A stretch of 64,000 nucleotides of DNA, from positions 310,001 to 374,000 of the forward strand of contig NW_026705302.1 in the NCBI RefSeq assembly GCF_029867415.1, in the 5' to 3' direction. The notes under the pieces are model-generated. The model worked only from the letters and a program-made list of their open reading frames with translations, was not told the origin of the DNA and ran no database searches. Positions 1-37,919 of this stretch are shown here, piece by piece (positions within the stretch are counted from its first letter, which is position 1; every line of letters starts with the position of its first letter). The position numbers and the translations under genes are program-made. The stretch comes from Vicia villosa. Its lineage: Eukaryota; Streptophyta; Magnoliopsida; Fabales; Fabaceae.

Positions 1-1277
1 TACTAATTGTTTATAATTAACAATGACAAGTAAATGATGATTTGGTTCACAAATGAGAAAGCATGCTAAGGTTGATGTATAAATCTTATGTAACTCCTTG
101 AAAACACCGTTGTTCATAAAAAAATGTGACCACAATTGAGTATCAATTCTATAAAATAGTTTTCCCTAATTCCTTAGTGGAGAACTTCTTAATACTTAAA
201 AGTCAATTTCAATTCCTCAATAATTGATTTTAGTATTAAGGCAATATGCATCGTGTTCTAGAATGGATGATCACTATGGTGAAATCCTTATTCCTAAGCG
301 ATTTACCGTTTATGTTTTGATTCAAAATGCATTAGAGTGGTGTGTCAAGCCTAACCCTAATCATAGATCGACAAAATATTTTCCAATACAATGAAGCATG
401 AAAATCTTTGAATCATAAACTCAAATTATAAAAACATCAAATTCATCACAACGGTTTTAACAAGTCATTACATGAAAAGATTTAGGGACATCACCCTAGC
501 ATGAAATAGTTTAGCTACTCATAATGTTTAAGAAAATAACAAGAGTAATTGAAGTCATTACAAGAAATTAGCGGTTGATATGATCTCCAATCGCGAGTGC
601 TCTTGAAGATCTTCTTCCAAAACCCTTGACTCTTCTTTCTCTGTAATTCTCTATGCTCAATGATCCAAGATCCTCATTCCTTCCTCCTGTTAGGTTTTAG
701 TAGTGTTGGCAGTCATTCCTCGTATTCGAAAGGTCCAAATTACCCTTAATGAGTTCAAGGCTTTCAAAATAACAAAAGTTGGAAATCTGCCCGCGCCTAC
801 CAACACGGACCGTGTGCAGGAACACGGGTGCCCGTGTTGGTCAACTGCTTCAGCTCCACAAATTCACTTCTGCGCAGCTTTTCACACGGACCGTGTGCAG
901 GAACACGGGTGCCCGTGTGAAACCTCTGTTTTTCTATCCAAAAACCAACTTTCCAGCCATCTTTTGACACGGCCGTGTGCACACACACGGGTGCCCGTGT
1001 TGACCTCAGTTTTGGCTCTTTTGGCTTCTTTTCTCGCTTGTGCGCGCCATAACTTCGACCTCTCCCGTGCATTAACCTGACCACACACAAACTAACAACC
1101 AACGCATAAAACGGCACTTGAATAATACTCAAAACACACTAATCATGCAACAACATCACACAATCAACAAACAAGAAACTTACTAACAAAACCTATAACA
1201 ATGCCACATAGTATTACCAAGATTATGACTTTTAGTCGGAAAAAGTGCGGAAACTTACTAGAAATGGTGACCGATCA
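1..1277 (-). mobile_element. Athila-like LTR fragment, minus strand
   Basis: I see no credible coding sequence. Read on the minus strand the block starts TGATCGGTCACC at 1277 and runs off the left end of the window. It carries an array of short palindromes at 803-1000, as does the Athila LTR further right. The stretch around 480-520 resembles Athila-type LTRs from memory. The right edge fits an LTR end (CA at 1276-1277) followed by ATCAA at 1278-1282, a 5-mer also present at the equivalent intact site near 16600. This suggests insertion into an Ogre LTR. No Athila primer-binding site is visible, so it may be a long LTR or a solo LTR. The family call is inference. Confidence 0.5.
803..1000. 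repeat. array of six ACACGG-type palindromes
   Basis: Three paired palindromes occur at 803-815 with 822-837, 884-896 with 903-918, and 967-978 with 985-1000. The first of each pair is ACACGGACCGTGT or ACACGGCCGTGT, and the second is ACACGGGTGCCCGTGT. Pairs recur every 81-83 bp. The apparent ORFs here on both strands are by-products of the repeat. Confidence 0.85.
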
Positions 1278-3920
1278 ATCAACATTGACCAAAAGTGTTT
1301 TTTTCCAAAGGAGACCAAATTTCCATGATCCAAACATGTTTCTAACAATGCTAAGGGCCTCCCATGATCAACCAAAGGCCCATAACATTTTATTTCTTTT
1401 TTTTGGTTTAATTTTATTACATTTAAGATTAAATTAAAAAAAGAAATGGAAGGATAATGTTATGTGGCTTGGATATTAAGCTAAGGTCATCAAGAAACAT
1501 TCAACTCTGCCACAAGAAGCTAGTACAGCAGAAGAGAGTGGAAAAATCAAGCCATGGTTGCTTAAATTCAAAGCTACATATGTTATAATATTCAAAAATT
1601 CAACAAAATCATCAATGCTTCCTAGCTTAGTTTTTAAGCACTTTCTTTGCCTATAAATGAAGTGTAACACTTCATCAAGAAAAAGAGACAAGATCAGAAC
1701 CAAACCTATGATTGTAACTCACTTGTAACACATTTGAAATTTTCAAAGAAACTTGAAATTCGAATTTTCAGTTTAAGTCATTTTTAATCCTAACTAAACA
1801 CTCAAACATCATCTCTGAGCATCATTGAACCTGTTCCAATCAGTTTCAAGCTTTGAAACACAAAGAATCGAGCACCATAGCTCACGGTTTGTGCAAACAA
1901 AAACTTAACAAAATCTCATCATACACTCACATCTAGCACGATGTAATCATATATTTGAATTTAGTTCATTGTTCTGATCGTTTCTGGATGGTTAATTGAA
2001 GTTTGAACATGTATCCATGAAGATACCATTTTAGGGTTCTTGAACTCTATTTTAGGGTTTTTCTTAAAAGGAAAAATTAGACAAAATTAAGGGCATGGTT
2101 GAATTCAGTGAATCATGACGAATCAAATGGATATGTCGCGAAAAATTTCTATGCTTGTTTACCCCTATTCGCTATTTTGCAGGGATGAGTTTCATCTATT
2201 ACAGCGCTTTTTGGCAAAAAACGCTATTAAAAGTATTGGCTGGAGGTTGAAGACGAAGGCGTGGCGCCATCTGATTGGCCAGTTTGAAAAAGCGCGCGTT
2301 TTGTCTTATTCTCGGATCTGATGCTCCGCTGACTAGACTATTGCCATGCGCCACACGTCCTTGTCCATTAGATCATTTTAATTCTCTCATCTAACGCTCC
2401 TTGTCTTGCAGGTTCACCATAGACCCTAGGGTTTTGCCACACATGATTATTGTTTTATATATTTTCTATTTTATTTTATTTTCTTTACAAAATTAATTTA
2501 AAATAGTTTCAAAAATCAAAAAAATATAATAAAAATATTTCTAGGTTTATAAAATAATCTATTATTTTTTTGACAAAAAAATATTTTATTTTTCTTAATA
2601 ATTAAAATATTTTGTTTAATTAATTAGTATATATTTATATATTTGCCTTTTAATTATTCAACCAATCAAAAAATCATAAATTTTTTTTTCTTTATATTAA
2701 ATTTAGTTTAGATATTTTAGACTAATTTTGTACATATTTAGAATATTTTTCTCTTTAAGTTTTAATTATTTATGTAATTATTTGCATAATTATATGTTAT
2801 TTAACTTAATAGTTTTCAAAACAATTTCAAAAATTCCAAAAAAAATAGTTTTATTTTAAAATTAATTAATAAGCATTTTGAACATATTTTAAACTTAATT
2901 TTTAGGTTTAAATTTTATTTCTACCTTTTTCCTCATTTTAATTAAATTAATCATGCATTAATTCTAATTAAAATCAAATATACAAAAAATCCAAAAATAT
3001 TTCTTTTATCTTATTGCAATTTAAATTCCTAGATAAAGTGTATAGGTTGTCAAATTCATGTAAATAGCGTAGTTTACATTTCCCGCACAATCGATGTAAT
3101 AGCGTATATTTACTTTCCGCATTTTACATTCCGCATTTTAATTCCAGCACATATAAAACTGCGTGTATGTCAAGAATAAAAACTGAAGCGTTAGATCACT
3201 AACTTCAAAGATAAAATATCTGAATCAAAACACAATCACATTTGCACCTCTTAGGGTGATCCCTCTTTTACTCTTTTCAAAATCAAAATCAAATTCTACT
3301 GTTTCAAATGCAAAAAATCGAACTTTCGTTTACATCCGGTGAAAGGAGAATTTTCTAAAGGAAATAGGAAAAGACCTTATAACTTAGGGTAGACCTCCTA
3401 ATTTGCTTGCTCAAATCAAAACAAACAAATGTCTCATATATCATTGTTTTCAAAATAAAACTTTCAAAAAAAAAAGACAATACTTGGTATATATCCAAAC
3501 AAGGATTATTACGAAGTTAACGTTCTTTTTTTTTTCAAAACATCTTTCGAAAGATAAAACACTTTGTATACATCCGCACAAGGATCATTACAAAGTCAAT
3601 TTACAAAGGTATTTGAAACCACATACAAGCATTTCAAGGCAAGAGAAAAAAAATGATTCAAAACAAGTGAGCTAAGCAAACTAAGAGCCCATGGATAACC
3701 ATGGATACAAAGGGTGCTAACACCTTCCCTTTGTATAACCAACCCCCTTACCCAGAATTTCTTAAAGGTCTTTTTCTGTTTCTTTTATAAACCTTTCCTT
3801 AATTGGATAAAATAAAAGTCGGTGGCGACTCTCTGATTTTTCAAAAACACAAAAGCAAAGAGAAGAGTGTCAGTTCGTATATCTCTCCACGAGAGGTATG
3901 GTAAAAAACCGAGGGCGACA
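1278..3920 (+). mobile_element. Ogre LTR, 3' portion (duplicate copy)
   Basis: Near-identical to 16600-19239, the 3' part of the Ogre-1 LTR, with roughly 20 differences seen by eye. It lacks the first 2.05 kb of the LTR. It includes the TATA box at 1652-1658, the AT-rich block at 2440-3000, a U5 hairpin at 3705-3736 and the terminal GAGGGCGACA ending at 3920. It runs straight into SIRE integrase sequence at 3921, exactly as the other copy does at 19240. The short ORF at 3403-3675 lies in LTR sequence and is not considered a gene. Confidence 0.9.
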
Positions 3921-4572
3921 AACATTTATAAGATTGATCTTTCTGATCTTAAGAATCAAAAGGTTACTTGCCTTATGTCTGTTAGTGAAGAGCAGTGGGT
4001 CTGGCACAGAAGATTAGGTCATGCTAGTTTGAGGAAGATTTCTCAGATTAACAAACTTAATCTGGTTAGAGGACTCCCTAATCTGAAATATAAATCAGAT
4101 GCTCTTTGCGAAGCATGTCAGAAAGGGAAGTTTTCAAAACCTGCATTCAAGTCTAAAAATGTTGTCTCTTCCTCTAGGCCGCTAGAACTTCTGCACATTA
4201 ATCTTTTTGGCCCAATCAAAACAGCATCAATCAGAGGAAAGAAATATGGATTAGTTATAGTAGACGACTATAGTAGATGGACATGGATAAAGTTCTTGAA
4301 ACACAAGGATGAGTCACATACTGTGTTCTTTGACTTCTGCACTCAGATTCAATCTGAGAAGGAATGCAAAATCATAAAGGTCAGAAGTGATCATGGTGGT
4401 GAATTTGAGAACAGATTCTTTGAAATTTATTTCAAAGAAAATGGTATTGCCCATGATTTCTCTTGTCCTAGAACTCCACACCAAAATGGAGTTGTAGAAC
4501 GAAAGAATAGGACTCTACAAGAAATGGCCAGAACCATGATCAATGAAACCAATATGGCTAAGCATTTCTGGC
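3921..4572 (+). pseudogene. SIRE copia integrase fragment (duplicate copy)
   Basis: Encodes the GAG-pre-integrase segment (WHRRLGHASL) followed by a Ty1/copia integrase core with DDYSRW, RSDHGGEF and GVVERKNR. The first catalytic aspartate, normally in an HxDLFGP context, is asparagine (HINLFGP; AAT at 4200-4202). It breaks off after HFW at 4572 and joins Ogre sequence that normally lies downstream of Ogre ORF1. The second copy at 19240 continues through this point without interruption. It is one arm of a duplication, not an independent insertion. Confidence 0.93.
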
Positions 4573-8858: not shown

Positions 8859-11800
8859 ATTCACATTCACTCTGGATCCTGTTGATAACGATTCTGCTAT
8901 TGCCAGTCATGACTTTGAAAATCCGATCTACCAAACTGAGGACGAAAGTGAGAAAGATTGTGAAGTACCAAGCGAACTTGCAAGGCTATTAGAACAAGAA
9001 GAAAAGACTATACAGCCGCATGAAGAACCAATTGAGGTTATCAACTTGGGCAGTGACGAAGAAAAGAAAGAAGTCAAGATAGGGGCTGATCTAGAAGACA
9101 GTGTCAAGCAAAGACTGATTCAAATGTTACAAGACTACGTTGAGATATTCGCTTGGTCCTATGAAGATATGCCTGGCCTTGACACAGATATTGTGGTTCA
9201 TCGCCTACCGATCAAAGAAGGTAGTAATCCAGTTAAGCAGAAACTGCGGAGGAGTAGGCCCGATATGTCAAAGAAGATCAAAGACGAGGTTGAGAAGCAA
9301 TTCAATGCTGGCTTTCTGAAAGTTGTGAGTTATCCTCCTTGGATAGCTAACATAGTACCGGTGCCTAAAAAAGACGGGAAAGTTAGAATGTGTGTAGACT
9401 ACAGAGATCTGAATCGGGCAAGCCCCAAAGATGATTTCCCTTTACCTCACATCGATGTACTAGTCGACAATACCGCACAATGCAAGGTATTCTCCTTCAT
9501 GGATGGATTCTCAGGGTACAATCAAATCAAGATGGCACCCGAAGACATGGAAAAAACAACCTTCACAACACCCTGGGGAACCTTTTGTTACAAAGTAATG
9601 CCCTTTGGTTTAAAGAATGCAGGAGCAACATATCAGCGTGCAATGGTAGCTCTGTTCCATGATATGATTCATCAGGAGATAGAGGTTTATGTTGATGATA
9701 TGATTGCGAAGTCCAACACCGAAGAAGAACATCTGGGTCATCTGCACAAGCTGTTTGACAGACTCAAGAAATACAGGCTGCGACTGAATCCGAACAAGTG
9801 TACCTTTAGAGTAAGATTCGGTAAACTCATAGGTTTCATAGTCAGCAGCAAAGGTATTGAGGTTGATCCTGCCAAGGTCAAAGCCATTCAAGAAATGCCT
9901 ATACCCCGTACCGAGAAACAAGTCAGAGGATTCTTGGGACGTCTGAATTACATAGCCAGATTTATTGCCCATATGACTACTACTTGTGTGCCGATCTTCA
10001 AACTGTTGAAGAAAGATCAAGTGGAAAGATGGAATGACAAATGCCAGTTAGCCTTTGATAAGATCAAAGAATATCTTCAAAATCCGCCAATCTTGTTACC
10101 ACCAGTGGAAGAAAGACCTCTGATAATGTACCTAACAGTGTTAGAAGATTCAATGGGGTGTGTACTGGGGCAACATGACGAGCCCGGCCGAAAGGAGCAC
10201 GCAATCTACTATCTTAGCAAAAAGTTTACCGATTGTGAAACAAGATACTCACTGCTCGAGAAAACTTGTTGTGCCTTAGCATGGGCGGCTCGCCGACTAA
10301 GACAGTATATGCTAAATCATACCACTTTCCTAATCTCCAAAATGGATCCTATCAAGTATGTGTTCGAAAAACCTGCTCTCTCTGGAAGAATAGCAAGATG
10401 GCAAATGATCTTAACAGAGTATGACATCCAGTACACTTCACAAAAAGCAATCAAAGGAAGTGTGGTAGCTGATCATCTGGCTCATCAAGCAGTGGATGAT
10501 TATCAAGCATTGAACTTTGACTTCCCAGATGAAGACATTATGCTAGTCACTGACTACGAACAACCAGGACCGGAAGAAGGACCCGAGCCGGGATCCCGAT
10601 GGACTATGGTTTTTGATGGAGCTTCTAACGCACTCGGCAATGGCATCGGAGCTGTGATCATTTCTCCTGCAGGAGGTTATACACCATTCACTGCCAGATT
10701 ATGCTTCAACTGCACTAACAATATAGCCGAGTATGAAGCATGTATTCTGGGTCTCAAAGCTGCAATCGATCTAAGAATCAAGTTCCTAGAGGTCTACGGA
10801 GACTCGGCGCTTGTGATTTATCAAGTCAAAGAGGAATGGGACACGAAGCACCCGAATCTAATTCCTTACAAAGAATATGTCCTGAGTTTGATTCCTTACT
10901 TTGAAGAAATCACTTTTGAACATATCCCGCGCGAAGAAAATCAACTAGCTGATGCCTTAGCTACCATGTCATCCATGTTCAAAGTCAGGTGGGACAATGA
11001 GGCGCCGATGATCACCATTTACAGACAGGATGAACCAGCCTATTGCAATGAGATCAATGCCGAAGGAACGGAAGAAAAACCATGGTTCCATGAAGTAAAA
11101 AGATATCTCGAAACTCAGGAGTACCCTTAAGGGGCATCCATTAACGATAGAAAGTTTCTAAGAAGATTTGCTGCCAAATTCTTCCTAAGTAATGGAACCC
11201 TATACAAACGCAACCATGACTCGACTTTACTTCGTTGTGTAAACAAGAAGGAAGCAGAACAGATTATGGAAGACATATACGATGGTGCTTTTGGTACTCA
11301 TTCAAGTGGACATACAATGGCTAAAAAGATCCTAAGAGCAGGTTATTATTGGTCTACCATGGAGACAGACTGCCATCATCACTCCAGAACCTGTCACAAA
11401 TGCCAGATATATGCCGACAAAGTACATGTACCTCCGGTCCCATTAAACGTCCTGACGGCTCCTTGGCCTTTTGCAATGTGGGGTATTGATATGATCGGAG
11501 AAATCAAGCCTACTGCCTCCAACGGACATCATTTTATCCTAGTCGCTATTGACTACTTCACAAAATGGGTAGAAGCAGCTTCATTTGCTTCTGTCACAAA
11601 AAATGTTGTGGCCCAATTTATCAAGCATAATCTCATTTGTCGGTATGGCATCCCTGAAAGGATCATCACAGACAATGGCACAAATTTGAACAACAGAATG
11701 ATTACTGAACTCTGCACACAATTCCAGATCAAACATCATAATTCCTCTCCATATCGACCAAAGATGAATGGCGCAGTGGAAGCTGCCAACAAGAACATCA

Positions 11801-12330
11801 AGAAAATCATATAGAAGATGACAGTAACCTACAAAGACTGGCATGAGATGTTACCTTTTGCTCTTCATGGTTATCGCACATCAGCACGTACTTCAACAGG
11901 GGCGACTCCATTCTCCTTAGTCTATGGTATGAGGGCAATTCTTCCAATTGAAATTCAGATTCCTTCCCTAAGGATTATGAAAGAAGCTGATCTAGACAAA
12001 GACGATTGGATTCAGACTCGGTTGGACCAGATAAACTTGATTGATGAGAAGAGGCTCGCAGCTATTTGTCATGGTCAGTTGTACCAAAAGCGTATGATCA
12101 AAGCCTTCAACAAGAAAGTCAAAAGTCAAGCATACCAAACCGGTGGTTTGGTTGTTAAACGCATCATCCTACCACAAGGTGACCCCAGGGGCAAGTGGAC
12201 TCCCACTTATGAGGGACCGTTTGTAATCAAGAAAATATTCTCCGGCGGTGCCATGCTGCTTACCACTATGGATGGCGAGGATTTCCCACATCCTGTAAAT
12301 GCGGACATAGTGAAAAAGTATTTCGCTTAA
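8859..12330 (+). pseudogene. Ogre-1 pol: RT, dual RNase H, integrase
   Basis: Exon 2 of gag-pol. An acidic linker (EDESEKDCEVP) is followed by RT with WIANIVPVPKKDGKVRMCVDYRDLN and the catalytic YVDD at 9688-9699. Then come a gypsy-type RNase H region (YYLSKKFTDCETRYS, about 10208) and a second RNase H (VFDGASNALGNG, NNIAEYEA, GDSALVIY, EENQLADALA; about 10610-10965). Two RNase H domains are a hallmark of the Tat lineage. Integrase has a His/Cys zinc-binding stretch and D-D-E residues in WGIDMIG, IITDNGTN and NGAVEAAN. No frameshift is present, but TAA at 11128 (GAA in Ogre-2) and TAG at 11812 (CAA in Ogre-2) interrupt it. It is inactive as annotated, though the catalytic residues survive. 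Confidence 0.92.
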
Positions 12331-12343
12331 AGAAAAGCTCGCA

Positions 12344-12369
12344 AAGTTGAAAACCTGAAAGGGCAACTT
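12344..12369 (+). ncRNA. Ogre 3' UTR RNA hairpin 1 (copy in Ogre-1)
   Basis: Predicted 26-nt hairpin 14 nt after the pol stop. The outer stem AAGTT/AACTT is perfect, followed by a 5' bulge GAAAA, an inner stem CCT/GGG (one G.U), a GAAA tetraloop and a single C bulge. It is followed by AGGCAAAA, shared by all three hairpins. No known function. Confidence 0.65.
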
Positions 12370-12391
12370 AGGCAAAAATGAGCGTCTCGGT

Positions 12392-12417
12392 GGATTGAAA
12401 ACCTGAAAAAGCGATCC
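12392..12417 (+). ncRNA. Ogre 3' UTR RNA hairpin 2 (copy in Ogre-1)
   Basis: Same 26-nt plan with a different outer stem, GGATT/GATCC (four Watson-Crick pairs and one G.U), bulge GAAAA, GAAA tetraloop and C bulge. The inner stem CCT/AAG has one mismatch; the Ogre-2 counterpart has GGG. Confidence 0.65.
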
Positions 12418-12454
12418 AGGCAAAAATTAGAGACTAAATAAATATTATCCCGGT

Positions 12455-12480
12455 AGGCTGAAAACCTGAAAAGGCAGTCT
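12455..12480 (+). ncRNA. Ogre 3' UTR RNA hairpin 3 (copy in Ogre-1)
   Basis: Same 26-nt plan with outer stem AGGCT/AGTCT (one G.U; perfect AGGCT/AGCCT in Ogre-2), bulge GAAAA, inner stem CCT/AGG, GAAA tetraloop and C bulge, then AGGCAAAA. Confidence 0.65.
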
Positions 12481-13718
12481 AGGCAAAAGTTAGGGAATAA
12501 AGCGTACAACTATGTTTCGTTTGGCTACCTACTCATCTTCAAGGTTCAACACATCAAAGACACCGATCAGTCCAATCACTTTCTTCCAACAAGTGAGGGA
12601 TGAGATGGTCGAAGACAGATTGGCAATAGCAGAATTGAAACTTGACTGGATTGTTTTCACATAGCTATTTCTCTTTATAAGTACTTTTCAAAGTTTTATG
12701 ACAATTTCCTACTACTGGGATTTTTGTCTCCTTGTACTAATCAGCCTATTATGGCTCTTTTTCAAAAAAAAATCAATGCAGCTCAGGCTCAAAAATTAAC
12801 ATTTTCACTTTTTCTGTTTTGAATACGTAAACGTCCCAATGATAATTTTGAATGAACATGTGCATTTGAATATGATTGATGTATACCAGAAAAACAGGAA
12901 TAGCATTCAGGTAATGTCCCAATCATTTGGACATCATCCCGAAACCAGCATTAGAAGAAAAATCCCCAACAGAGATGCATTTCTCAGCAAATTCCTCAAT
13001 GAGATTTCTCTCTCTCACAAAGTGATTCGAGAAATCTTACTCCCCAGCAGGACTGTTCAAGAGTGCTATCCCCAGAAAGTGTGGTCTCCACACCAGAACT
13101 TGGTCAAATAGTGCATCGGAGGATTATGCATCTTCCTCATTCCCACTTCAAAGGGCATCAAAGTCGGAACTTTCAAATTACCTTTCATCCCCAAACGGTA
13201 GTCAAAGATCCTTCAACAGAGCACCTTGGTTCTCAAAGAAGGTCCCCCAGCCGAGTATACTCGAGCAAGACGACAAAAATCATCAACGGTCACAATGCCT
13301 TCATTTCCAAATGGCTAGCGGGGATTTATTTTCCCAACCAGAAGCTTGATACGCTCAAGACTGCATAAGTCATACATCATACATCATACATCACACATTA
13401 TACATAATATATCATACGCATATTCATACACAGCATATAATGTTTCATGACAAACGCATACATAACATGCATATTTCTCCTTTAGTTCAAAAATCTCATA
13501 CATTACATGCATCATGACATTGCATGACGCTAACTTGATTTTTTTTCAGGTGGACGAATATCCTCAGCAAAGTTGTTCTTGATCACATACAGTGTTCCCC
13601 TGAATTCTATTCAGACAAACATTCCTCTCAGATATAATCAAGCCGAAGGTTCATTCTGAAGAGATCTCTCTTTCAAAATCACCTATCAACTCAAAAACAA
13701 GCAACACAGATCTAAGTC
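12481..13718 (+). other. Ogre-1 3' untranslated region
   Basis: Non-coding stretch between the hairpin array and the minisatellite, collinear with 35301-36579 of Ogre-2. It contains a CATACATCA-rich microsatellite at about 13370-13420 and a T-tract plus CAG (TTTTTTTTCAG) ending at 13550 that resembles a 3' splice site. Short ORFs at 12839-13368 carry no recognisable domain and are not maintained between copies. Confidence 0.75.
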
Positions 13719-14280
13719 GATACCTTGGACGGTTCCAGAACAATCTACCATCAAAGATCTAAAGCTGATACCTCAGAAGGTTCCAGAACGATCTACCATC
13801 AAAGATCTAAAGCTGATACCTCAGACGGTTCCAGAACGATCTACCATCAAAGATCTAAAGCTGATACCTCAGACGGTTCCAGAACGATCTACCATCAAAG
13901 ATCTAAAGCTGATACCTCAGACGGTTCCAGAACGATCTACCATCAAAGATCTAAAGCTGATACCTCAGAAGGTTCCAGAACGATCTACCATCAAAGATCT
14001 AAAGCTGATACCTCAGACGGTTCCAGAACGATCTACCATCAAAGATCTAAAGCTGATACCTCAGACGGTTCCAGAACGATCTACCATCAAAGATCTAAAG
14101 CTGATATCTCAGAAGGTTCCAGAACGATCTGCCATCAAAGATCTAAAGCTGGTACCTCAGACGATTCCACAACGATCAATTTTCAAAATCTAAAGCGGAA
14201 AAACTTTGGACAGTTCCGTAATGATCATCCTCCAAGACTTAAAGCGGTAACCTCGGACGGTTCCGAAACAGTCAACGCAG
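13719..14280 (+). repeat. 48-bp minisatellite in Ogre-1 3' UTR
   Basis: About nine near-identical 48-bp units (GATACCTCAGACGGTTCC ... AAAGATCTAAAGCT), then two to three degenerate units. Because 48 is a multiple of 3, the array reads open as a 16-residue repeat (GSRTIYHQRSKADTSD), which explains the 194-codon ORF at 13725-14309. It is not evidence for a protein. Tandem repeats in the 3' UTR of Tat/Ogre elements are established and can seed satellite DNA. Confidence 0.92.
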
Positions 14281-15089
14281 AGGTTTTCAAATCCTTCATC
14301 AAAATATAATCAATGGATTCATTCTGATGAACAAATCATCGACACATTTGCCAGATGGCATCTGAAAGCCCATCTCAGGTAATGTTTCAATCTGCCAACA
14401 ACATTTCTTAGACAAACATTCAAAGACAAATTCCAGCATCACTTCCGGTGGAGGTAAGTGCAAATTTTCAGGGCATCTAAAATATTCAATCATCTTCTAC
14501 CTTCAGAATCCAAACGGTCTATTCAGGTTTAAGAAGATTGAATAGGGGCAACTGTTATACCCCAAAATTTGCCCTGCATCTTTTTTCAGAAGACTTCTAT
14601 CTAAAAATTAAGAGTTTCATATAATCTTGGATTTTATCCCATAAATATCCTGATTTATGAATACTCGGTTTTTAGAATTTTTCTTATACGGTATTTTGGC
14701 TCGCTGTTGAATTTATTCTTACACAAACGCCAGTTACTGTTTATCATTTCACACGCTATTTATTTGAGATTTATTTACAGACAAATAGTACTGACGCAAT
14801 TGGTACATAATTAAATCTTTTTGCAGGCACAGAGTCCGGGGACTCAGACTGTACTGGTAACAAGTAAATTATTATTAACTTTTGTTTCCCACTAATTTTG
14901 TACTATATTCTATTATTTTCAAAATCTTTTTCTTTCTCTTTCTTTCAAAATCAAATCCTAACTTTATTCTATATATCTCTTTTTTCAAACCCTACCATAC
15001 ACTTTCTTTCAAATCCTACTGCCACTCAAATTTTCCTTTTTTGTACGGAATCACTTCATTCCCCAACATCTCTATCCTTCTTTTCACTC

Positions 15090-16436: not shown

Positions 16437-16973
16437 AGGCCATAACATCAAGATAACTTCTCCAAATGAAAAAAAGTTTCCAAAGTGGCTTGTAGAGGAC
16501 ATCTTGAGGTTTCTAAAAAGTACAAGAACTCCTTCATATGATAAAAATTGAGGGATTTATGCCTTGTTGAAGTTGGCTATTTTTTGGGAAAATGCATGAA
16601 ATCAACATTGACCAAAAGTGTTTTTTTCCAAAGGAGACCAAATTTCCATGATCCAAACATGTTTCTAACAATGCTAAGGGCCTCCCATGATCAACCAAAG
16701 ACCCATAACATTTTATTTCTTTTTTTGGTTTAATTTTATTACATTTAAGATTAAATTAAAAAAAGAAATGGAAGGATAATGTTATGTGGCTTGGATTTTA
16801 AGCTAAGGTCATCAAGAAACATTCAACTCTGCCACAAGAAGCTAGTACAGCAGAAGAGAGTGGAAAAATCAAGCCATGGTTGCTTGAATTCAAAGCTACA
16901 TATGTTATAATATTCAAAAATTCAACAAAATCATCAATGCTTCCTAGCTTAGTTTTTAAGCACTTTCTTTGCC

Positions 16974-16980
16974 TATAAAT
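16974..16980 (+). promoter_or_regulatory. TATA box 2, likely Ogre genomic promoter
   Basis: TATAAAT in TTTGCCTATAAATGAAG, about 2.4 kb into the LTR and 2.3 kb before its end. Matching sites are 1652-1658, 23064-23070 and 39712-39718. The half-way position and following leader-like sequence make it the better candidate for genomic RNA initiation, which is not demonstrated here. Confidence 0.5.
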
Positions 16981-19023
16981 GAAGTGTAACACTTCATCAA
17001 GAAAAAGAGACAAGATCAGAACCAAACCTATGCTTGTAACTCACTTGTAACACATTTGAAATTTTCAAAGAAACTTGAAATTCGATTTCAGTTTAAGTCA
17101 TTTTTAATCCTAACTAAACACTCAAACATCATCTCTGAGCATCATTGAACCTGTTCCAATCAGTTTCAAGCTTTGAAACACAAATAATCGAGCACCATAG
17201 CTCACGGTTTGTGCAAACAAAAACTTAACAAAATCTCATCATACACTCACATCTAGCACGATGTAATCATATATTTGAATTTAGTTCATTGTTCTGATCG
17301 TTTCTGGATGGTTAATTGAAGTTTGAACATGTATCCATGAAGATACCATTTTAGGGTTCTTGAACTCTATTTTAGGGTTTTTCTTAAAAGCCAAAATTAG
17401 ACAAAATTAAGGGCATGGTTGAATTCAGTGAATCATGACGAATCAAATGGATATGTCGCGAAACATTTCTATGCTTGTTTACCCCTATTCGCTATTTTGC
17501 AGGATGAGTTTCATCTATTACAACGCTTTTTGGCAAAAAAATGCTATTAAAAGTATTGGCTGGAGGTTAAGACGAAGGCGTGGCGCCATCTGATTGGCCA
17601 GTTTGAAAAAGCGCGCGTTTTGTCTTATTCTCGGATCTGATGCTTCGCTGACTAGACTATTTTCATGCGCCACACGTCCTTGTCCATTAGATCATTTTAA
17701 TTCTCTCATCTAACGCTCCTTGTCTTGCAGGTTCACCATAGACCCTAGGGGTTTGCCACACATGATTATTGTTTTATATATTTTCTATTTTATTTTATTT
17801 TCTTTACAAAATTAATTTAAAATAGTTTCAAAAATCAAAAAAATATAATAAAAATATTTCTAGGTTTATAAAATAATCTATTATTTTTTTGACAAAAAAA
17901 TATTTTATTTTTCTTAATAATTAAAATATTTTGTTTAATTAATTAGTATATATTTATATATTTGCCTTTTAATTATTCAACCAATCAAAAAATCATAAAT
18001 TTTTTTTTCTTTATATTAAATTTAGTTTAGATATTTTAGACTAATTTTGTACATATTTAGAATATTTTTCTCTTTAAGTTTTAATTATTTATGTAATTAT
18101 TTGCATAATTATATGTTATTTAACTTAATAGTTTTCAAAACAATTTCAAAAATTCCAAAAAAAATAGTTTTATTTTAAAATTAATTAATAAGCATTTTGA
18201 ACATATTTTAAACTTAATTTTTAGGTTTAAATTTTATTTCTACCTTTTTCCTCATTTTAATTAAATTAATCATGCATTAATTCTAATTAAAATCAAATAT
18301 ACAAAAAATCCAAAAATATTTCTTTTATCTTATTGCAATTTAAATTCCTAGATAAAGTGTATAGGTTGTCAAATTCATGTAAATAGCGTAGTTTACATTT
18401 CCCGCACAATCGATGTAATAACGTATATTTACTTTCCGCATTTTACATTCCGCATTTTAATTCCAGCACATATAAAACTGCGTGTATGTCAAGAATAAAA
18501 ACTGAAGCGTTAGATCACTAACTTCAAAGATAAAATATCTGAATCAAAACACAATCACATTTGCACCTCTTAGGGTGATCCCTCTTTTACTCTTTTCAAA
18601 ATCAAAATCAAATTCTACTGTTTCAAATGCAAAAAATCGAACTTTCGTTTACATCCGGTGAAAGGAGAATTTTCTAAAGGAAATAGGAAAAGACCTTATA
18701 ACTTAGGGTAGACCTCCTAATTTGCTTGCTCAAATCAAAACAAACAAATGTCTCATATATCATTGTTTTCAAAATAAAACTTTCAAAAAAAAAAGACAAT
18801 ACTTGGTATATATCCAAACAAGGATTATTACGAAGTTAACGTTCTTTTTTTTTTCAAAACATCTTTCGAAAGATAAAACACTTTGTATACATCCGCACAA
18901 GGATCATTACAAAGTCAATTTACAAAGGTATTTGAAACCACATACAAGCATTTCAAGGCAAGAGAAAAAAAATGATTCAAAACAAGTGAGCTAAGCAAAC
19001 TAAGAGCCCATGGATAACCATGG

Positions 19024-19055
19024 ATACAAAGGGTGCTAACACCTTCCCTTTGTAT
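19024..19055 (+). other. conserved U5 hairpin of Ogre LTR
   Basis: ATACAAAGGG pairs with CCCTTTGTAT around a 12-nt loop. The same structure is at 3705-3736, 25160-25192 and 41804-41836. It lies about 185-215 bp before each LTR end and could act in RNA 3' processing or reverse transcription. Confidence 0.6.
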
Positions 19056-19239
19056 AACCAACCCCCTTACCCAGAATTTCTTAAAGGTCTTTTTCTGTTT
19101 CTTTTATAAACCTTTCCTTAATTGGATAAAATAAAAGTCGGTGGCGACTCTCTGATTTTTCAAAAACACAAAAGCAAAGAGAAGAGTGTCAGTTCGTATA
19201 TCTCTCCACGAGAGGTATGGTAAAAAACCGAGGGCGACA

Positions 19240-20622
19240 AACATTTATAAGATTGATCTTTCTGATCTTAAGAATCAAAAGGTTACTTGCCTTATGTCTG
19301 TTAGTGAAGAGCAGTGGGTCTGGCACAGAAGATTAGGTCATGCTAGTTTGAGGAAGATTTCTCAGATTAACAAACTTAATCTGGTCAGAGGACTCCCTAA
19401 TCTGAAATATAAATCAGATGCTCTTTGCGAAGCATGTCAGAAAGGGAAGTTTTCAAAACCTGCATTCAAGTCTAAAAATGTTGTCTCTTCCTCTAGGCCG
19501 CTAGAACTTCTGCACATTAATCTTTTTGGCCCAATCAAAACAGCATCAATCAGAGGAAAGAAATATGGATTAGTTATAGTAGACGACTATAGTAGATGGA
19601 CATTGATAAAGTTCTTGAAACACAAGGATGAGTCACATACTGTGTTCTTTGACTTCTGCACTCAGATTCAATCTGAGAAGGAATGCAAAATCATAAAGGT
19701 CAGAAGTGATCATGGTGGTGAATTTGAGAACAGATTCTTTGAAATTTATTTCAAAGAAAATGGTATTGCCCATGATTTCTCTTGTCCTAGAACTCCACAC
19801 CAAAATGGAGTTGTAGAACGAAAGAATAGGACTCTACAAGAAATGGCCAGAACCATGATCAATGAAACCAATATGGCTAAGCATTTCTGGGCAGAAGCGA
19901 TTAACAATGCATGTTACATTCAGAATAGAATCTCCATAAGACCTATTCTAAATAAGACTCCTTATGAATTATGGAAGAACAGAAAGCACAACATTTCTTA
20001 TTTCCATCCATTTGGATGTGTATGCTATATTCTAAATACTAAAGATCATCTGCATAAGTTTGAATCTAAAGCTCATAAGTGTTTTCTACTTGGATATTCT
20101 GAACGCTCAAAAGGCTACAGAGTATACAATACTGAAACTCTTATAGTTGAAGAATCAATCAATATCAGATTTGATGATAAGCTTGGTTTTGAAAAGCCAA
20201 CGCAGTTTGAGAATTTTGCAGATATTGATATCTCTAACTCAGATTAAGAAGAACCCAGAAGCAAAGTTTCAGAAGATCAAGTTGCTGCCTCTTTAGAGAA
20301 TCTCAGAATATCTAAAGAGCCAACACCTATAAGATCTTCTAGACTCAACTCTGCTCATCCAGAAGATGTTATCATTAGAAAGAAAGATGATCCTATCAGA
20401 ACAAGAGCATTCCTTAAGAACAAAGCAGAATGTCAATTTGGTCTAGTATCTCTGATTGAGCCAACTTCGGGTGATCAAGCTCTGGAAGATGCTGACTGGA
20501 TAATTGCCATGCAAGAAGAACTAAATCAGTTTACAAGGAATGATGTTTGGGATCTGGTTCCAAAACCAAAAGGATTTAACATCATTGGAACAAAGTGGGT
20601 CTTCAGAAACAAGCTAAGCGAG
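19240..20622 (+). pseudogene. SIRE copia integrase and start of RT
   Basis: Left part of the SIRE pol gene, from the GAG-pre-integrase motif WHRRLGHAS through the integrase core (VDDYSRW, RSDHGGEF, GVVERKNR) and its C-terminal copia region (HPFGCVCYIL, FLGY-type FLLGYSERSKGYRVY), to the RT N-terminus (NDVWDLVPKP, GTKWVFRNKL). The first catalytic Asp is Asn (AAT 19519-19521). TAA at 20245 interrupts the linker between integrase and RT; the frame continues beyond it. The gene is cut by Ogre-1 on its left and by Ogre-2 at 20622, and resumes at 42017 in the same frame. SIRE gag and protease lie outside the window. Confidence 0.93.
20618..20622 (+). repeat. Ogre-2 target-site duplication, left
   Basis: GCGAG directly precedes the LTR TG at 20623. 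The identical 5-mer follows the 3' LTR at 42012-42016. Confidence 0.96.
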
Positions 20623-21172
20623 TGTTATACCCCAAAATTTGCCCGCATCTTTTTCAAAAAAGAAGGCAATAGACTTCTGTCTAAAAATTGAGAGTTTCAT
20701 ATAATCTTGGATTTTATTTCATAAATATCCTGATTTTATGAATACTCGGTTTTTAGAATTTTTCTTATACGGTATTTTGGTTCGCTGTTGAATTTATTCT
20801 TACACAAACGCTAATTACTGTTTATCACTTCACACACGCTGTTTATTTGAGATTTATTTGCAGATAAATAGTACTGACGCAATTGGTACATAATTAAATT
20901 TTTTTGCAGGCGCAGAGTCCGGGGATTCAGACTGTACTGGTAACGAGTAAATTATTATTAGTTTTTGTTTCCCACTAATTTTTGTACTATATTCTATTAT
21001 TTTCAAAATCTTTTCCTTTCTTTTCAAATCTCTTTCTTTCAAAATCAAATCCTAATACATCTCTCTTTTCAAACCCTACCATACACTTTCTTTCAAATCC
21101 TACTACCACTCAAATTTTCCTTTTTGTACGGAATCACTTCATTCCCCAACGTCTCTATCCTTCTTTTCACTC

Positions 21173-21180
21173 TATAAATA
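21173..21180 (+). promoter_or_regulatory. TATA box upstream of micro-ORF, Ogre-2 5' LTR
   Basis: TATAAATA, 102 bp before the ATG at 21275; equivalent to 15090 and 37819. Confidence 0.6.
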
Positions 21181-21274
21181 CCTCTCATTTTTTTTTCATA
21201 AATTCTCACATCAAATTTCAACTCATCTCTCAAATTTCTACCTCATATTTATTTTCTCTTCTTCCCCGACAAAA

Positions 21275-21442
21275 ATGGCGAAGTGGATGGATACGTGTTT
21301 TCTTATGGTCATCACCGTCGTGGTGGTAATCATGTCCTTTTTCTGTCTGCATAGTCCTGAGAAATGCGGACCTGGGTTGTTTACACTCCCAATCATCTAT
21401 ATGTTGCTATTTATAGCATGGGTTTTTAATCGTCATTTTTAA
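21275..21442 (+). CDS. 55-residue two-TM micro-ORF, Ogre-2 5' LTR
   Basis: Same frame, length and organisation as the Ogre-1 copy: MAKWMDT N-terminus, hydrophobic residues 8-25, HSPEKCGPG loop, second hydrophobic stretch at 35-51, ending NRHF. Differences from Ogre-1 are scattered point changes with no indels, whereas the flanking LTR shows many length differences. If TATA box 1 is used, this would be the first ORF on the transcript. Unrecognised family. Confidence 0.55.
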   Translation: MAKWMDTCFLMVITVVVVIMSFFCLHSPEKCGPGLFTLPIIYMLLFIAWVFNRHF

Positions 21443-31732: not shown

Positions 31733-34700
31733 ATTCACATTCACTCTGGATCCTGTTGATAACGATTCTGCTATTGCCAGTCATGACTTTGAAAATCCGA
31801 TCTACCAAACTGAGGACGAAAGTGAGGAAGATTGTGAAGTACCAAGGGAACTTGCAAGGCTGTTAGAACAAGAGGAAAAGACTATACAGCCGCATGAAGA
31901 GCCAATTGAAATTATCAACTTGGGCAGCGACGAAGAAAAGAAAGAAGTCAAGATAGGGGCTGATCTAGAGGACAGTGTCAAGCAAAGACTGATTTAAATG
32001 TTACAAGACTACGTTAAGATATTCGCCTGGTCCTATGAAGATATGCCCGGCCTTGACACGAATATTGTGGTTCATCGCCTGCCGATCAAAGAAGGTAGCA
32101 CTCCAGTTAAGCAGAAACTGCGGAGGAGTAGGCCCGATATGTCAAAGAAGATCAAAGACGAGGTTGAGAAGCAATTCAATGCTGGCTTTCTGAAAGTTGT
32201 GAGTTATCCTCCTTGGATAGCTAACATAGTGCCTGTGCCTAAAAAGGACGGGAAAGTCAGAATTTGTGTAGACTACAGAGATCTGAATCGGGCAAGCCCC
32301 AAAAATGATTTCCCTTTACCTCACATCGATGTACTGGTTGACAATACTGCACAATGCAAGGTATTATCCTTTATGGATGGATTCTCAGGGTACAATCAAA
32401 TCAAGATGGCACCCGAAGACATGGAAAAAACAACCTTCACAACACCCTGGGGAACCTTTTGTTATAAAGTAATGCCCTTTGTTTAAAGAATGCAGGAGCA
32501 ACCTATTAACGTGCAATGGTAGCTCTGTTCCATGATATGATTCATCAAGAAATAGAGGTTTACGTGGATGATATGATTGCAAAGTCCAACACCGAAGAAG
32601 AACATCTAGGTCATCTGCACAAACTGTTTGACAGACTCAAGAAGTACAGGTTGCGACTGAATCCGAACAAGTGTACCTTTGGAGTAAGATCCGGTAAACT
32701 CTTAGGTTTCATCGTCAGCAGCAAAGGTATTGAAGTTGATCCTGCCAAGGTCAAAGCCATTCAAGAAATGCCCATACCCCGTACCGAGAAACAAGTCAGA
32801 GGATTCTTGGGACGTCTGAATTACATAGCCAGATTTATTGCCCACATGACTACTACTTGTGTGCCAATCTTCAAATTGTTGAAGAAAGATCAAGTGGAAA
32901 GATGGAATGACAAATGCCAATTAGCCTTTGATAAGATCAAAGAATATCTCCAAAAACCGCCAATCTTGTTACCACCAGTGGAAGGAAGACCTCTGATAAT
33001 GTACCTAACTGTGTTAGAAGATTCAATGGGGTGTGTACTGGGGCAACATGACGAGTCTGGCTGAAAGGAGCATGCAATATACTATCTTAGCAAAAAGTTT
33101 ACCGATTGTGAAACAAGATACTCACTGCTCGAGAAAACTTGTTGTTCCTTAGCATGGGCGGCTCGCCGACTAAGACAGTATATGCTAAACCATACCACTT
33201 TCCTGATCTCCAAAATGGATCCTATCAAGTATGTGTTCGAAAAACCTGCTCTCTCTAGAAGAATATCAAGATGGCAAATGATCTTAACAGAGTGTGACAT
33301 CCAGTACACTTCGCAAAAAGCGATCAAAGGAAGTGTGATAGCTGATCATCTGGCTCATCAAGCAGTGGATGATTATCAAGCGTTGAACTTTGACTTCCCA
33401 GATGAAGACATTATGCTAGTTACTGACTATGAACAACCAGGACCGGAGGAAGGACCCGAGCCAGGATCCCGATGGACTATGGTTTTTGATGGAGCTTCTA
33501 ATGCACTTGGCAATGGCATCGGAGCTGTGATCATTTCTCCTGCAGGAGGACATACACCATTCACTGCCAGATTATGTTTCAACTGCACTAACAATATAGC
33601 CGAGTATGAAGCATGTATTCTGGGTCTCAAAGCTGCAATCGATCTAAGAATCAAGTTCCTGGAGGTCTACGGAGACTCGGCACTTGTAATTTATCAAGTC
33701 AAAGAGGAATGGGACACGAAGCACCCGAATCTAATTCCTTACAAAGAATATGTGCTGAGTTTGATTCCTTATTTTGAAGAAATAACTTTTGAACATATCC
33801 CGCGCGAAGAAAATCAATTGGCTGATGCCTTAGTTACCATGTCATCTATGTTCAAAGTCAGGTGGGACAATGAGGCGCCAATGATCACCATTTACAGACA
33901 GGATGAACCAGCCTATTGCAATGAGATCGATACCGAAGGAATGGAAGAAAAACCATGGTTCCATGAAGTAAAAAGATATCTCGAAGCTCAGGAGTACCCT
34001 GAAGGGGCATCCATTAACGATAGAAAGTTTCTAAGAAGATTTGCTGCTAAATTCTTTCTAAGTAATGGAATCCTGTACAAACGCAACCATGACTCGACCT
34101 TTGCTTCGTTGTGTAAACAAGAAGGAAGCAGAACAGATTATGGAAGACATACACGATGGTGCTTTTGGTACTCATTCAAGTGGACATACAATGGCTAAAA
34201 ATATCTTAAGAGCAGGTTATTACTGGTCTACCATGGAGACAGACTTCCATCATCACTCCAGAACTTGTCACAAATGCCAGATATATGCTGACAAAGTACA
34301 TGTACCTCCAGTCCCGTTAAACGTCCTGACGGCTCCTTAGCCTTTTGCAATGTGGGGTATTGATATGATTGGAGAAATCAAGCCTACTGCCTCCAACGGA
34401 CATCGTTTTATCCTGGTCGCTATCGATTACTTCACCAAATGGGTAGAAGCAGCTTCATTTGCTTCTGTCACCAAGAACGTGGTGGCCCGATTTATCAAGC
34501 ACAATCTCATTCGTCGGTATGGCATCCCTGAAAGGATCATCACAAACAATGGCACAAATTTAAACAACAGAATGATTACTGAACTCTGCACACAGTTCAA
34601 GATCAAACATCATAATTCCTCTCCATATCGACCAAAGATGAATGGCGCGGTGGAAGCTGCCAACAAGAAAATCAAGAAGATCATACAAAAAATGACAGTA

Positions 34701-35147
34701 ACCTACAAAGACTGGCATGAGATGTTACCTTTTGCTCTTCATGGTTATCGCACATCAGCGCGTACTTCAACAGGGGCAACTCCATTCTCTTTAGTCTATG
34801 GTATGGAGGCAGTTCTTCCAATTGAACTTCAGACTCAGTTGGACCAGATAAACTTGATTGATGAGAAGAGGCTCGCAGCTATTTGTCATGGTCAGTTGTA
34901 CCAGAAACGTATGATTAAAGCCTTCAACAAGAAAGTCAAAAGTCAGGCATATCAAATCGGTGATTTGGTTGTCAAACGCATCATCTTACCACAAGGTGAC
35001 CCCAGAGGCAAGTGGACTCCCACTTATGAGGGACCATTTGTAATCAAGAAAATATTCTCCGGCGGAGCCATGTTGCTTACCACTATGGATGGCGAGGATT
35101 TCCCACACCCTGTAAATGCGTACATAGTCAAAAAGTACTTCGCTTAA
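31733..35147 (+). pseudogene. Ogre-2 pol: RT, dual RNase H, integrase
   Basis: Domain order as in Ogre-1, with YVDD at 32561-32572, gypsy RNase H, second RNase H (VFDGASNALGNG, EENQLADALV) and integrase. Lesions: TAA 31995; one-base loss near 32480 and TAA 32507; TGA 33062 (CGA in Ogre-1); one-base gain near 34100; TAG 34338 (TGG in Ogre-1). At 34545-34547 AAC replaces the catalytic Asp codon (IITNNGTN versus IITDNGTN). A 57-bp in-frame loss near 34830 lies between two TTCAGA repeats that remain in Ogre-1. It cannot encode active enzymes. Confidence 0.93.
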
Positions 35148-35156
35148 AAGCTCGCT

Positions 35157-35182
35157 AAGTTGAAAACCTGAAAGGGTGACTT
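35157..35182 (+). ncRNA. Ogre 3' UTR RNA hairpin 1 (copy in Ogre-2)
   Basis: AAGTT/GACTT outer stem (one G.U), GAAAA bulge, CCT/GGG inner stem, GAAA tetraloop and single-nt bulge; same 26-nt geometry as 12344-12369. Confidence 0.65.
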
Positions 35183-35211
35183 AGGCAAAAAAAAATGATG
35201 AGCGTCTCAGT

Positions 35212-35237
35212 GGATTGAAAACCTGAAAGGGCGATCC
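35212..35237 (+). ncRNA. Ogre 3' UTR RNA hairpin 2 (copy in Ogre-2)
   Basis: GGATT/GATCC outer stem, GAAAA bulge, CCT/GGG inner stem, GAAA tetraloop and C bulge. Confidence 0.65.
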
Positions 35238-35274
35238 AGGCAAAAATTAGAGACTAAATAATAATTATCCCGGT

Positions 35275-35300
35275 AGGCTGAAAACCTGAAAAGGCAGCCT
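35275..35300 (+). ncRNA. Ogre 3' UTR RNA hairpin 3 (copy in Ogre-2)
   Basis: AGGCT/AGCCT outer stem (fully Watson-Crick here, G.U in Ogre-1), GAAAA bulge, CCT/AGG inner stem, GAAA tetraloop and C bulge. Confidence 0.68.
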
Positions 35301-36579
35301 AGGCAAAAGTTAGGGAATAAAGCGTACGACTATGTCCCGTTTAGCTACCTACTCACCTTCAAGATTCAACACATCAAAGGTACCAATCAGTCCAATCACT
35401 TTCTTCCAACAAGTGAGGGATGAGATGCTCGAAGGCAGATTGGCAATAGCAGAATTGAAACTTGACTGGATTGTTTTCACATAGCTATTTCTCTTTATAA
35501 ATACTTTTCAAAGCTTTATGACAATTTCCTACTACTAGGATTTTTGTCTCCTTGTACTAATCAGCCTATTATGGCTCTTTTTCAAAAATCAATGCAGCTC
35601 ATGCTCAAAATCAACGTTTTCACTTTTTCTGTTTTGAATACGTAAACGTCCCAATGATAATTTTGAATGAACATATGCATTTGAATATGATTTATGTTTA
35701 TAAGAAAAACAGGAATAGCATTCATGTAATGTCCCAATCATCTGGACATCATCCCGAAACCAGCATCAGAAGAAAAATCCCCAACAGAGATGCATTTCTC
35801 AGCAAATTCCTCAATGAGATTTTTTCTCCAACAAAGTGCTTCGAGAAATCTTACCCCCCAGCAGGACTGCTCAAGGTCACTATCCCCAGAAGGTGTGATC
35901 CTCCACACCAAGGATTGGTCAAATAGTGCATCGGAGGATTACGCATCTTTCTTAAGGTGCATCAAAATCAGAACTTTCAAACTACCTTCATCTCCAAGCA
36001 GTAGTTAAAGATCCCTCAACAGAGTACTTTGGTCCGTAAAGAAGGTCCCCAGCTAAGTGTACTCGAACAAGACAGCAAAGATCATCAACGATCACAATGC
36101 CTTCACTTCCAAAATAACAAACAGGGATTTATTTTCCCAACTAGAAGATTGATACGCTCTAGACCGCATAAGTCATGTCCATACATCATACATTATACGC
36201 ATATTCATACACAGCATACAATGTTTCATGACAAACGCATACATAACATGCACATTTCTCATTTAGTTTGAGAATCTCAACATATACATTACATGCATCA
36301 TAACATTGCATGACACTAACTTGATTTTTTTTTCAGGTGGACGAATATCCTCAGAAAAGTTGTTCTCAGTCACATACAGTGTTCCCCTGAATTCTATTCA
36401 GACGAACATTCCTCTCAGATATCATCAAGCCAAAGTTTCATTCTGAAGAGATCTCTCTTTCCAAACCACTTATTAACTCTAAACAAGCAAAGCAGATACA
36501 GTCTAATGGTGACTCATTCTGATGCTTCCAGGCTATACCACAGTCGAATAAACAACTCCAAATCCTTCAGATCTAAGTC
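35301..36579 (+). other. Ogre-2 3' untranslated region
   Basis: Collinear with 12481-13718. Contains a conserved T-tract plus CAG near 36325-36337 and small ORFs without recognisable domains that differ from those in Ogre-1. Confidence 0.75.
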
Positions 36580-36985
36580 GATACCTTGGACGGTTCCTTA
36601 ATGATCTACCTTCAAGATCTAAGACGATACCGTGGACGGTTCCTTAATGATCTACCTTCAAGATCTAAGACGATACCTTGGAAGGTTCCTTAATGATCTA
36701 CCTTCAAGATCTAAGACGATACCTTGGACGGTTCCTTAATGATCTACCATCAAAGATCTAAAGCTGATACCTCAGACGGTTCCTTAAGACGATCAATCTT
36801 CAAAGATCTAAAGCGGATACTTCAGACGGTTCCACAACGATCAATCTTTAAAGATCCAAAGCGGATACCTCAGACGGTTCCACAACGATCAACATTCAAA
36901 ATCTAAAACAGAAACTTTGGACAGTACCGTAACGATCAGCCTCCAAGACTTAAAGCGGTAACCTCGGACGGTTCCGAAACGGTCA
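36580..36985 (+). repeat. 46-48-bp minisatellite in Ogre-2 3' UTR
   Basis: About eight units of a GATAC(C)..GGACGGTTCC...GATCTA family. The first four are of a 46-bp type (CTTAATGATCTACCTTCAAG) not present in Ogre-1; the rest resemble the 48-bp type. The array differs in unit type and copy number from 13719-14280, showing rapid turnover between elements. Confidence 0.88.
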
Positions 36986-37818: not shown

Positions 37819-37826
37819 TATAAATA
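37819..37826 (+). promoter_or_regulatory. TATA box upstream of micro-ORF, Ogre-2 3' LTR
   Basis: TATAAATA, 101 bp before the ATG at 37920. Confidence 0.6.
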
Positions 37827-37919
37827 CCTCTCATTTTTTTTCATAAATTCTCACATCAAATTTCAACTCATCTCTCAAATTTCTACCTCATATTTATTTT
37901 CTCTTCTTCCCCGACAAAA

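Follow-up and report, generated by a model that had tools for sequence, protein, structure and literature searches.

The CTE of MPMV lies at a 3' location and forms one long stem with two internal loops, whereas the array described here, from Ogre retrotransposons, is a series of separate hairpins; this comparison is made from an Rfam scan and from the description of the CTE. The array, the CTE, the RTE of mouse IAP and the MTE of musD are all structured RNA elements of retroelements, and the available parts of the reports state that the latter three export full-length or unspliced RNA by way of NXF1 (PMC8579622, PMC12786077). A second related system is the stability element of Rous sarcoma virus (RSV), which, according to its abstract, directly follows the gag stop codon and stabilises an mRNA with a long 3' UTR (PMC5580461). 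Both it and the Ogre array come right behind a stop codon and ahead of a very long untranslated region, but the viral element is about 400 nt long, follows gag and belongs to an animal virus, and its abstract mentions no hairpin repeat.

Two further systems come from plant LTR elements. The ENE triple-helix elements, for example that of Evade, are like the Ogre array structured and located in the 3' UTR. The ENE depends on a U-rich internal loop, as stated in the available part of PMC12501189, whereas the loops of the Ogre array are A-rich, and the array folds of the two Ogre copies studied here contain no ENE-type U-rich internal loop that could clamp the poly(A) tail. The hypervariable tandem repeats in the 3' UTR of Ogre and GmOgre share with the array both the part of the element and the tandem units. 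These repeats are described as polymorphic minisatellites, in contrast to the covarying stems and nearly fixed loops of the array, and a 48-bp minisatellite in one of our copies (Ogre-1) is separate from the array, 1.2 kb further on. Neither hairpin nor secondary structure occurs as a term in the main text of the papers on GmOgre and Retand, or in the lineage survey. The initial annotation of this DNA knew of no description of the hairpins; in agreement with it, none of the titles and abstract openings among the open-licence PMC papers listed describes them, and a prior mention is possible. The array adds RNA structure to a region known, in the literature examined, for its variable repeats.

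Ogre elements make up a large share of many legume genomes, and we know of no answer to how their intron-retaining RNA is exported, protected or packaged. The window analysed here, a stretch of 64,000 nt from Vicia villosa, carries two Ogre-type LTR retrotransposons on its + strand, Ogre-1 and Ogre-2 (Table 1). The Pfam domain order in both pol regions is reverse transcriptase, RNase H, second RNase H and integrase, with the additional RNase H between RNase H and integrase that is a trait of the Ogre lineage and that, in the available part of PMC6317226, also characterizes Retand. Ogre-2 shows a further trait of the lineage, an extra ORF 5' of gag (DUF7745, 26397-27404), and its frames are separate, with gag-protease at 28181-30853 and the reverse transcriptase frame starting from 31998. 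The extra ORF was looked for in Ogre-1 and not found. The 5' side of this copy looks rearranged, since the stretches 1277-4571 and 16600-19890 are 99.3% identical and contain part of the Ogre LTR together with a flanking copia integrase. At the other end of the Ogre-1 coding region, 11818-12330 is without any Pfam match.

Table 1. Features of the two Ogre elements and their hairpin arrays, in window coordinates
Feature	Position	Strand	Details
Ogre-1 pol part	9046..11130	+	RVT_1, RT_RNaseH, additional RNase H (RVT_3); Pfam
Ogre-1 integrase, after pol part	11266-12330	+	Pfam rve in 11266-11814
Ogre-1 pol stop codon	12328..12330	+	TAA; array begins 6 nt later
Ogre-1 unit a	12337..12383	+	S1 GCTC/GAGC; S2 AAGTT/AACTT; AAAA bulge; CCT GAAA GGG; tail AGGCAAAAAT
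Ogre-1 unit b	12384..12434	+	S1 GTCTC/GAGAC; S2 GGATT/GATCC; inner stem damaged (CCT/AAG); tail AGGCAAAAATTA
Ogre-1 unit c	12448..12496	+	S1 TCCC/GGGA; S2 AGGCT/AGTCT; CCT GAAA AGG; tail AGGCAAAAGTTA
Ogre-1 remaining 3' untranslated region, to LTR-like repeat at about 14553	12500..14552	+	holds 48-bp minisatellite
Ogre-2 integrase frame, ending directly 5' of array	34350..35147	+	
Ogre-2 pol stop codon	35145..35147	+	array begins 2 nt later
Ogre-2 unit a	35150..35203	+	S1 GCTC/GAGC; S2 AAGTT/GACTT; longer A-run in internal loop
Ogre-2 unit b	35204..35254	+	S1 GTCTC/GAGAC; S2 GGATT/GATCC; CCT GAAA GGG
Ogre-2 unit c	35268..35316	+	S1 TCCC/GGGA; S2 AGGCT/AGCCT; CCT GAAA AGG

Three hairpins directly follow the pol stop in each element, just where the initial annotation had placed them, and a pattern search of the window returned exactly the unit starts it had given (12344, 12392 and 12455 in Ogre-1; 35157, 35212 and 35275 in Ogre-2). 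Every unit is two-tiered. The outermost stem, S1, which that annotation lacked and which was found on folding, has at least 4 bp and differs in sequence from unit to unit (Table 1). It encloses an asymmetric internal loop: its 5' strand reads GG or GC, its 3' strand GGCAAAARTTA, made up of GGCAAAA and a few more letters. Inside this loop come a T-A pair, the 5-bp stem S2, again different in each unit, and a G-C pair, and inside the latter lie an AAAA bulge, a 3-bp stem CCY/RGG and a GAAA tetraloop. A GAAAA bulge and a separate single-nucleotide bulge had been read at first; the G of GAAAA actually pairs with that supposedly bulged C, so the bulge is AAAA and is found on one side only. The observation that the outer stems differ in sequence yet remain complementary holds, with S2 paired at 5/5 positions in all six window units. 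The inner stem had been taken as fixed, CCT/(A,G)GG; in unit b of Ogre-1 one inner pair is broken. Unit a of Ogre-1 has A-A in place of the T-A pair, and it abuts unit b, whose S1 starts at the end of a.

RNA folding of either Ogre region gives essentially the same three two-tier hairpins, with the damaged inner stem of Ogre-1 unit b remaining open. The fold energies beat those of shuffled sequences only moderately (Ogre-1, z -1.30, 17 of 200 shuffles as good; Ogre-2, z -2.61, 3 of 200), and energy alone is therefore unconvincing. As to the geometry, a 5/5 S2 is found at 0.95% of the window positions and an S2 with a 4-bp S1 at 0.2%, so that three consecutive 5/5 S2 stems would occur by chance at about 1e-6 if independent. 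Three in a row at fixed core positions are far beyond chance. A pattern made of the core plus AGGCAAAA, with no demand for stem pairing, matches six times in the window, with 0.00 matches expected from shuffles.

The same core-plus-tail pattern has 21,665 exact matches in the window's own genome (2,034,964,285 bases), 10,769 forward and 10,896 reverse, and the reversed pattern has none in the same 2.03 Gb. For closer study, 88 loci were assembled from 57 found by the motif pattern, 29 found by integrase and the two window elements. The 57 separate motif loci represent the 100 matches listed, all in the first 20.5 Mb of one contig; eleven overlapping motif loci are excluded from the 88, as is L081, the window's own copy. 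The integrase loci were selected with the last 170 residues as the query and are the best 30 of 150 scored among 28,983 loose candidates; this set of 30 still includes L081, which is Ogre-1. With about 21,700 strict matches at two or three per element, there would be fewer arrays than candidates, but the candidates are loose and the pattern is strict. About nine groups of elements were drawn by eye from the final integrase residues, as opposed to a tree, for example GEDFPH (the window's own), GDELPH, GEDFPQ, GEEFTR and GEDVPL.

The array is retained in copies picked independently of the motif. A scan that tolerates up to four changed core letters found it in all 30 integrase-selected loci, 28 of them with three units and two with two. 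All of them are closely related to the window's family (97-100% in the query), and within this one close family the stems are kept in 30 of 30 copies. Of their 88 units, 87 have S2 paired 5/5 and 87 have S1 paired 4/4; 85 retain an unaltered GAAAA bulge, 85 the GAAA loop and 77 the GGCAAAA tail.

The covariation was measured in 33 distinct units (alignment A3), all from one genome. Here 97.6% of the cells are paired, compared with 88.3% after shuffling; the covariation score is 0.524 against 0.320; and 49 cells have changed on both sides against 17.5. None of these three levels was reached by any of 500 shuffles. Two other measures did not favour the structure: the number of pairs with a two-sided change (equalled in 39 of 500 shuffles) and the further pair types (500 of 500, with the real value below the shuffled one). 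It is worth pointing out that relatedness among units can inflate shuffle tests, while sliding the pairing partners preserves that relatedness; sliding them by 1-3 columns makes the pairing in the 33 units fall to 31-50%. The six window units alone behave in the same way, with 96.7% of the cells paired against 88.1% shuffled (0 of 500) and 18-55% with slid partners. RNAalifold, with no structure supplied, returned the same hairpin except for the G-C pair adjoining the bulge. This pair was kept in the model, being a standard one in 226 of the 231 units (C in 223, T in 3).

Those 231 units come from the 88 loci and have S2 paired 5/5 in 228 cases, in 24 arm combinations; the expressions behind this count, and behind the stop distances given below, accept certain core letters only, so more divergent units go uncounted. 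The T-A pair next to S2 is present in 225 of them and replaced by C-G in four, and ten, first units belonging to the GEEFTR group and to L069, have the inner stem CTC/GAG in place of CCY/RGG. A count of 143 units from 59 loci gave S2 5/5 in 141, and S1, taken at its best position within a set range, 4/4 in 135 and 3/4 in eight. Pairing of S1 is also specific to the tail of the same unit: it is seen in 98 of 106 distinct units, compared with 853 of 4380 swaps with tails from units whose S1 differs at two or more sites. Compensating changes can be followed at fixed places in the array: unit 2 appears across groups as GGATT/GATCC, GGATT/GGTCC, GGACT/GGTCC and GAATC/GATTC, unit 3 occurs as AGGCT/AGCCT or AGATT/AATCT, and in a group with two units the last one is AGACT/GGTCT. 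The strong covariation is between units and between Ogre groups, not between Ogre-1 and Ogre-2. The initial annotation was right that Ogre-2 keeps all three units, but the compensation it saw between the two copies amounts to one-sided or wobble changes, none of them two-sided. In this genome, covarying stems go together with an AAAA bulge, a GNRA-type loop and a GGCAAAA internal loop that hardly change. Since the paired letters change together and the loops stay nearly fixed, the RNA shape appears to be under selection; covariation and retention strongly support the original reading of a fixed loop on a variable paired stem as a selected sense-strand structure, and the Ogre array is a real, selected RNA element.

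The loops are not equally strict everywhere. Across groups the GGCAAAA internal loop is common even to units without the core and served as the search anchor there; in the family of the window, copies retain the core a little more frequently than GGCAAAA. In two groups there are two extra units with S1, GC/GG and GGCAAAARTTA (or near variants), in which a plain stem stands where the bulge and GAAA core would be. Neither loop is strictly needed, given these extra units without bulge or GAAA and the 11 of 88 integrase-selected units without an exact GGCAAAA. Extra units of this kind, two of them with S1 and GGCAAAA, precede the core units in L019, L045, L059, L060, L068 and L072; their plain stem, approximately TAGGT/RCCTA or else CAAACC/GGTTTG, has neither AAAA bulge nor GAAA loop, and one extra unit of L068 has GGAAAAA instead of GGCAAAA. 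In the first unit of L013, L022 and other GDELP copies, and of L027 and the GEEFTR group, GAAA gives way to a loop GCAAA (rarely GTAAA), with the stems paired; this five-letter loop may still be GNRA-like in shape.

Searches outside Ogre gave no true match to the array in the viral and prokaryote collections. At the gathering score, the only Rfam match in the whole window is snoR71 at 59186, with none in the array, and a relaxed Rfam search of 12300-14560 produced ten weak matches, none within the array. The strict pattern has no match in viral contigs. A relaxed tandem pattern matched one IMG/VR contig, where the match sits in frame with a repeated KPETE peptide, and it was rejected. Eleven prokaryote loci with one match each were also set aside: they reach at most 21.2 bits against the model and five, by their contexts, look like the same gene, compared with 68-76 bits for five of the Ogre units (the sixth, Ogre-1 a, overlaps unit b by one base as aligned and is outside the model listing). 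The Ogre RT protein, in a search that detects close relatives only, matched no viral contig. The model, run with default filters and an E limit of 10, found nothing in the window's one Athila element.

What could such an array be used for? The initial annotation had offered Gag binding, dimerisation, 3' end formation or translation as possible roles. Unpaired letters that are fixed, next to stem letters that are free, would suit a protein that reads the loops, and mostly two to four copies in series would allow one RNA-binding protein per hairpin, the copies adding up through avidity. The array may therefore be pictured, from its sequence pattern, as a multivalent protein-docking platform, and the protein that binds it could come from the host or could be Gag. 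Its most likely use, we tentatively suggest, would be the nuclear export or the protection from decay of the full-length, intron-retaining genomic RNA, with the platform working like the MPMV CTE, the IAP RTE, the musD MTE or the RSV stability element. As reported in the available parts of the sources, few plant LTR elements other than Ogre possess an intron (PMC12786077), and that of Ogre is spliced from only part of the transcripts (PMC6317226, PMC12786077). With splicing only partial, the genomic RNA must exit the nucleus bearing its intron and with a long stretch behind the stop. The position of the RSV element is also found in Ogre, with the first core unit starting 2-27 nt behind the stop in 75 of 87 loci and about 2 kb from there to the 3' LTR in Ogre-1. 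According to the same source, in its available part, direct studies of RNA export in plant LTR elements have not been conducted (PMC12786077).

There are points on the other side. In TCV, a plant virus case described in the available part of PMC6277124, the RNA is protected from nonsense-mediated decay when the stretch behind the stop is unstructured; inserting a hairpin there removed the protection, although a readthrough structure of TCV also protected. Protection by unstructured RNA after the stop, in plants, counts against the stability version of the proposal. The array also lies in the 3' part, which spliced and unspliced RNA presumably share, and alone it cannot distinguish the two. With somewhat more reserve, we put forward the wider claim that the array represents an undescribed RNA family, a serial, position-locked, two-tier hairpin array that would be the general docking platform of Ogre RNA after transcription in this genome. 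If true, it would be a plant counterpart of the retroviral transport and stability elements and the first in an intron-containing plant retrotransposon. A compact covarying element with thousands of copies would offer a defined bait for the protein involved, and pairing that is broken and then restored in a reporter would be a clean test of the array.

The most serious competitor, to us rather unlikely as the main use, is a binding array for Gag (nucleocapsid), that is, a packaging or dimerisation signal with Gag sitting on the exposed GNRA loops and A-bulges. Repeated binding of Gag would be well served by hairpins in tandem whose exposed purine loops are fixed, the array is present in every one of the 30 integrase-selected copies, and the localisation and packaging of Ty3 RNA needed UTR or POL sequences (PMC4974528). 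The same source, in its available part, places the cis packaging sequences of Ty1 at the 5' end, and the GAAA loops are not self-complementary, which would leave no kissing by base pairing. Export or stability is ranked before packaging on account of the transport elements of retroelements and the RSV element after the stop. The packaging question could be helped by L069, where no integrase end could be recognised ahead of the array and which may be a defective or non-autonomous copy.

The location of the array invites the thought of a translation signal, in which structure after the stop promotes readthrough or tunes termination. An integrase end and a stop lie just upstream in 87 of the 88 loci, including 56 of the 57 motif-found ones, and the short distance cited above for the first core unit speaks for such a role. 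The full range of distances, however, is 2-104 nt, with 55-104 nt in the remaining 12 loci, where in most cases the gap consists of further units or of remnants retaining GGCAAAA, and all three stop codons are used before arrays. Several stops are found in all three frames of the Ogre-1 array, so that readthrough there would add at most 16 residues. This explanation is improbable.

Another explanation is a neutral tandem duplication, in which the likeness of the units is kept by exchange between elements and the pairing is due to chance. The units do look related by duplication, and between Ogre-1 and Ogre-2 the array differs about as much as the nearby UTR; the idea of a higher array conservation between these two copies was rejected for this reason, the pair being too close to show any conservation specific to the array. 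The picture changes across groups. When one copy represents each of the nine groups, 34 of 36 pairs are more alike in the array than in the last 240 coding bases with the stop (in one example, 0.92 against 0.68), and a comparison with the 300 nt that follow the array likewise favours the array in 34 of 36; these are gapped global alignments with a shuffled baseline near 0.7, so only the ranking of the identities is to be trusted. Exchange between elements could raise the array identity. Exchange alone, on the other hand, makes no matched changes in two arms, against which stand the excess of two-sided cells and the preference of S1 for its own tail reported above, and in many group pairs the sequence downstream has drifted close to the shuffled baseline, often being no better than shuffled. 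We regard neutral duplication as very improbable.

Just as little credit goes to an element acting at the DNA level, with the imperfect palindromes as protein sites, cruciforms or insertion targets. The inverted repeats are of course present in the DNA also, but wobbles that pair in the sense RNA only, as had been pointed out from the start, are common: pair 6-24 is U.G in 22 of the 33 distinct units and pair 14-20 in 15. The antisense strand of the Ogre-2 array folds worse than the sense strand (-34.6 vs -43.6 kcal/mol), and the integrase end upstream of 56 of the 57 motif-found loci is a further argument against this explanation. Least probable of all is a coding repeat, with units encoding a repeated peptide (ENLK..RQK): the Ogre-1 spacings are multiples of three (48 and 63) and in frame with pol, but the proposal was rejected on the stops carried by every Ogre-1 frame, on the Ogre-2 a-b spacing of 55, which is not divisible by three, and on arms that covary through base pairing, and in addition the cores of the six window units have no third-position pattern and a protein search with the 48-residue frame of unit c gave no candidate protein.

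Some other features of the window are of interest in their own right. The 48-bp minisatellite of the Ogre 3' UTR occupies about 13702-14267 in Ogre-1 and 36564-36988 in Ogre-2, being longer in the former. The LTRs of Ogre-2 (20623-25368 and 37262-42012) are about 4.75 kb long and 98.7% identical, which suggests a fairly recent insertion, and a copia reverse transcriptase (42176-43381) lies directly 3' of the Ogre-2 LTR. The snoR71 match, to a plant C/D snoRNA, covers 59186-59292 on the + strand with 50.2 bits against a cut-off of 40; it is antisense to unassigned frames on the - strand within an Athila-like element, and it is either a captured snoRNA or a chance likeness.
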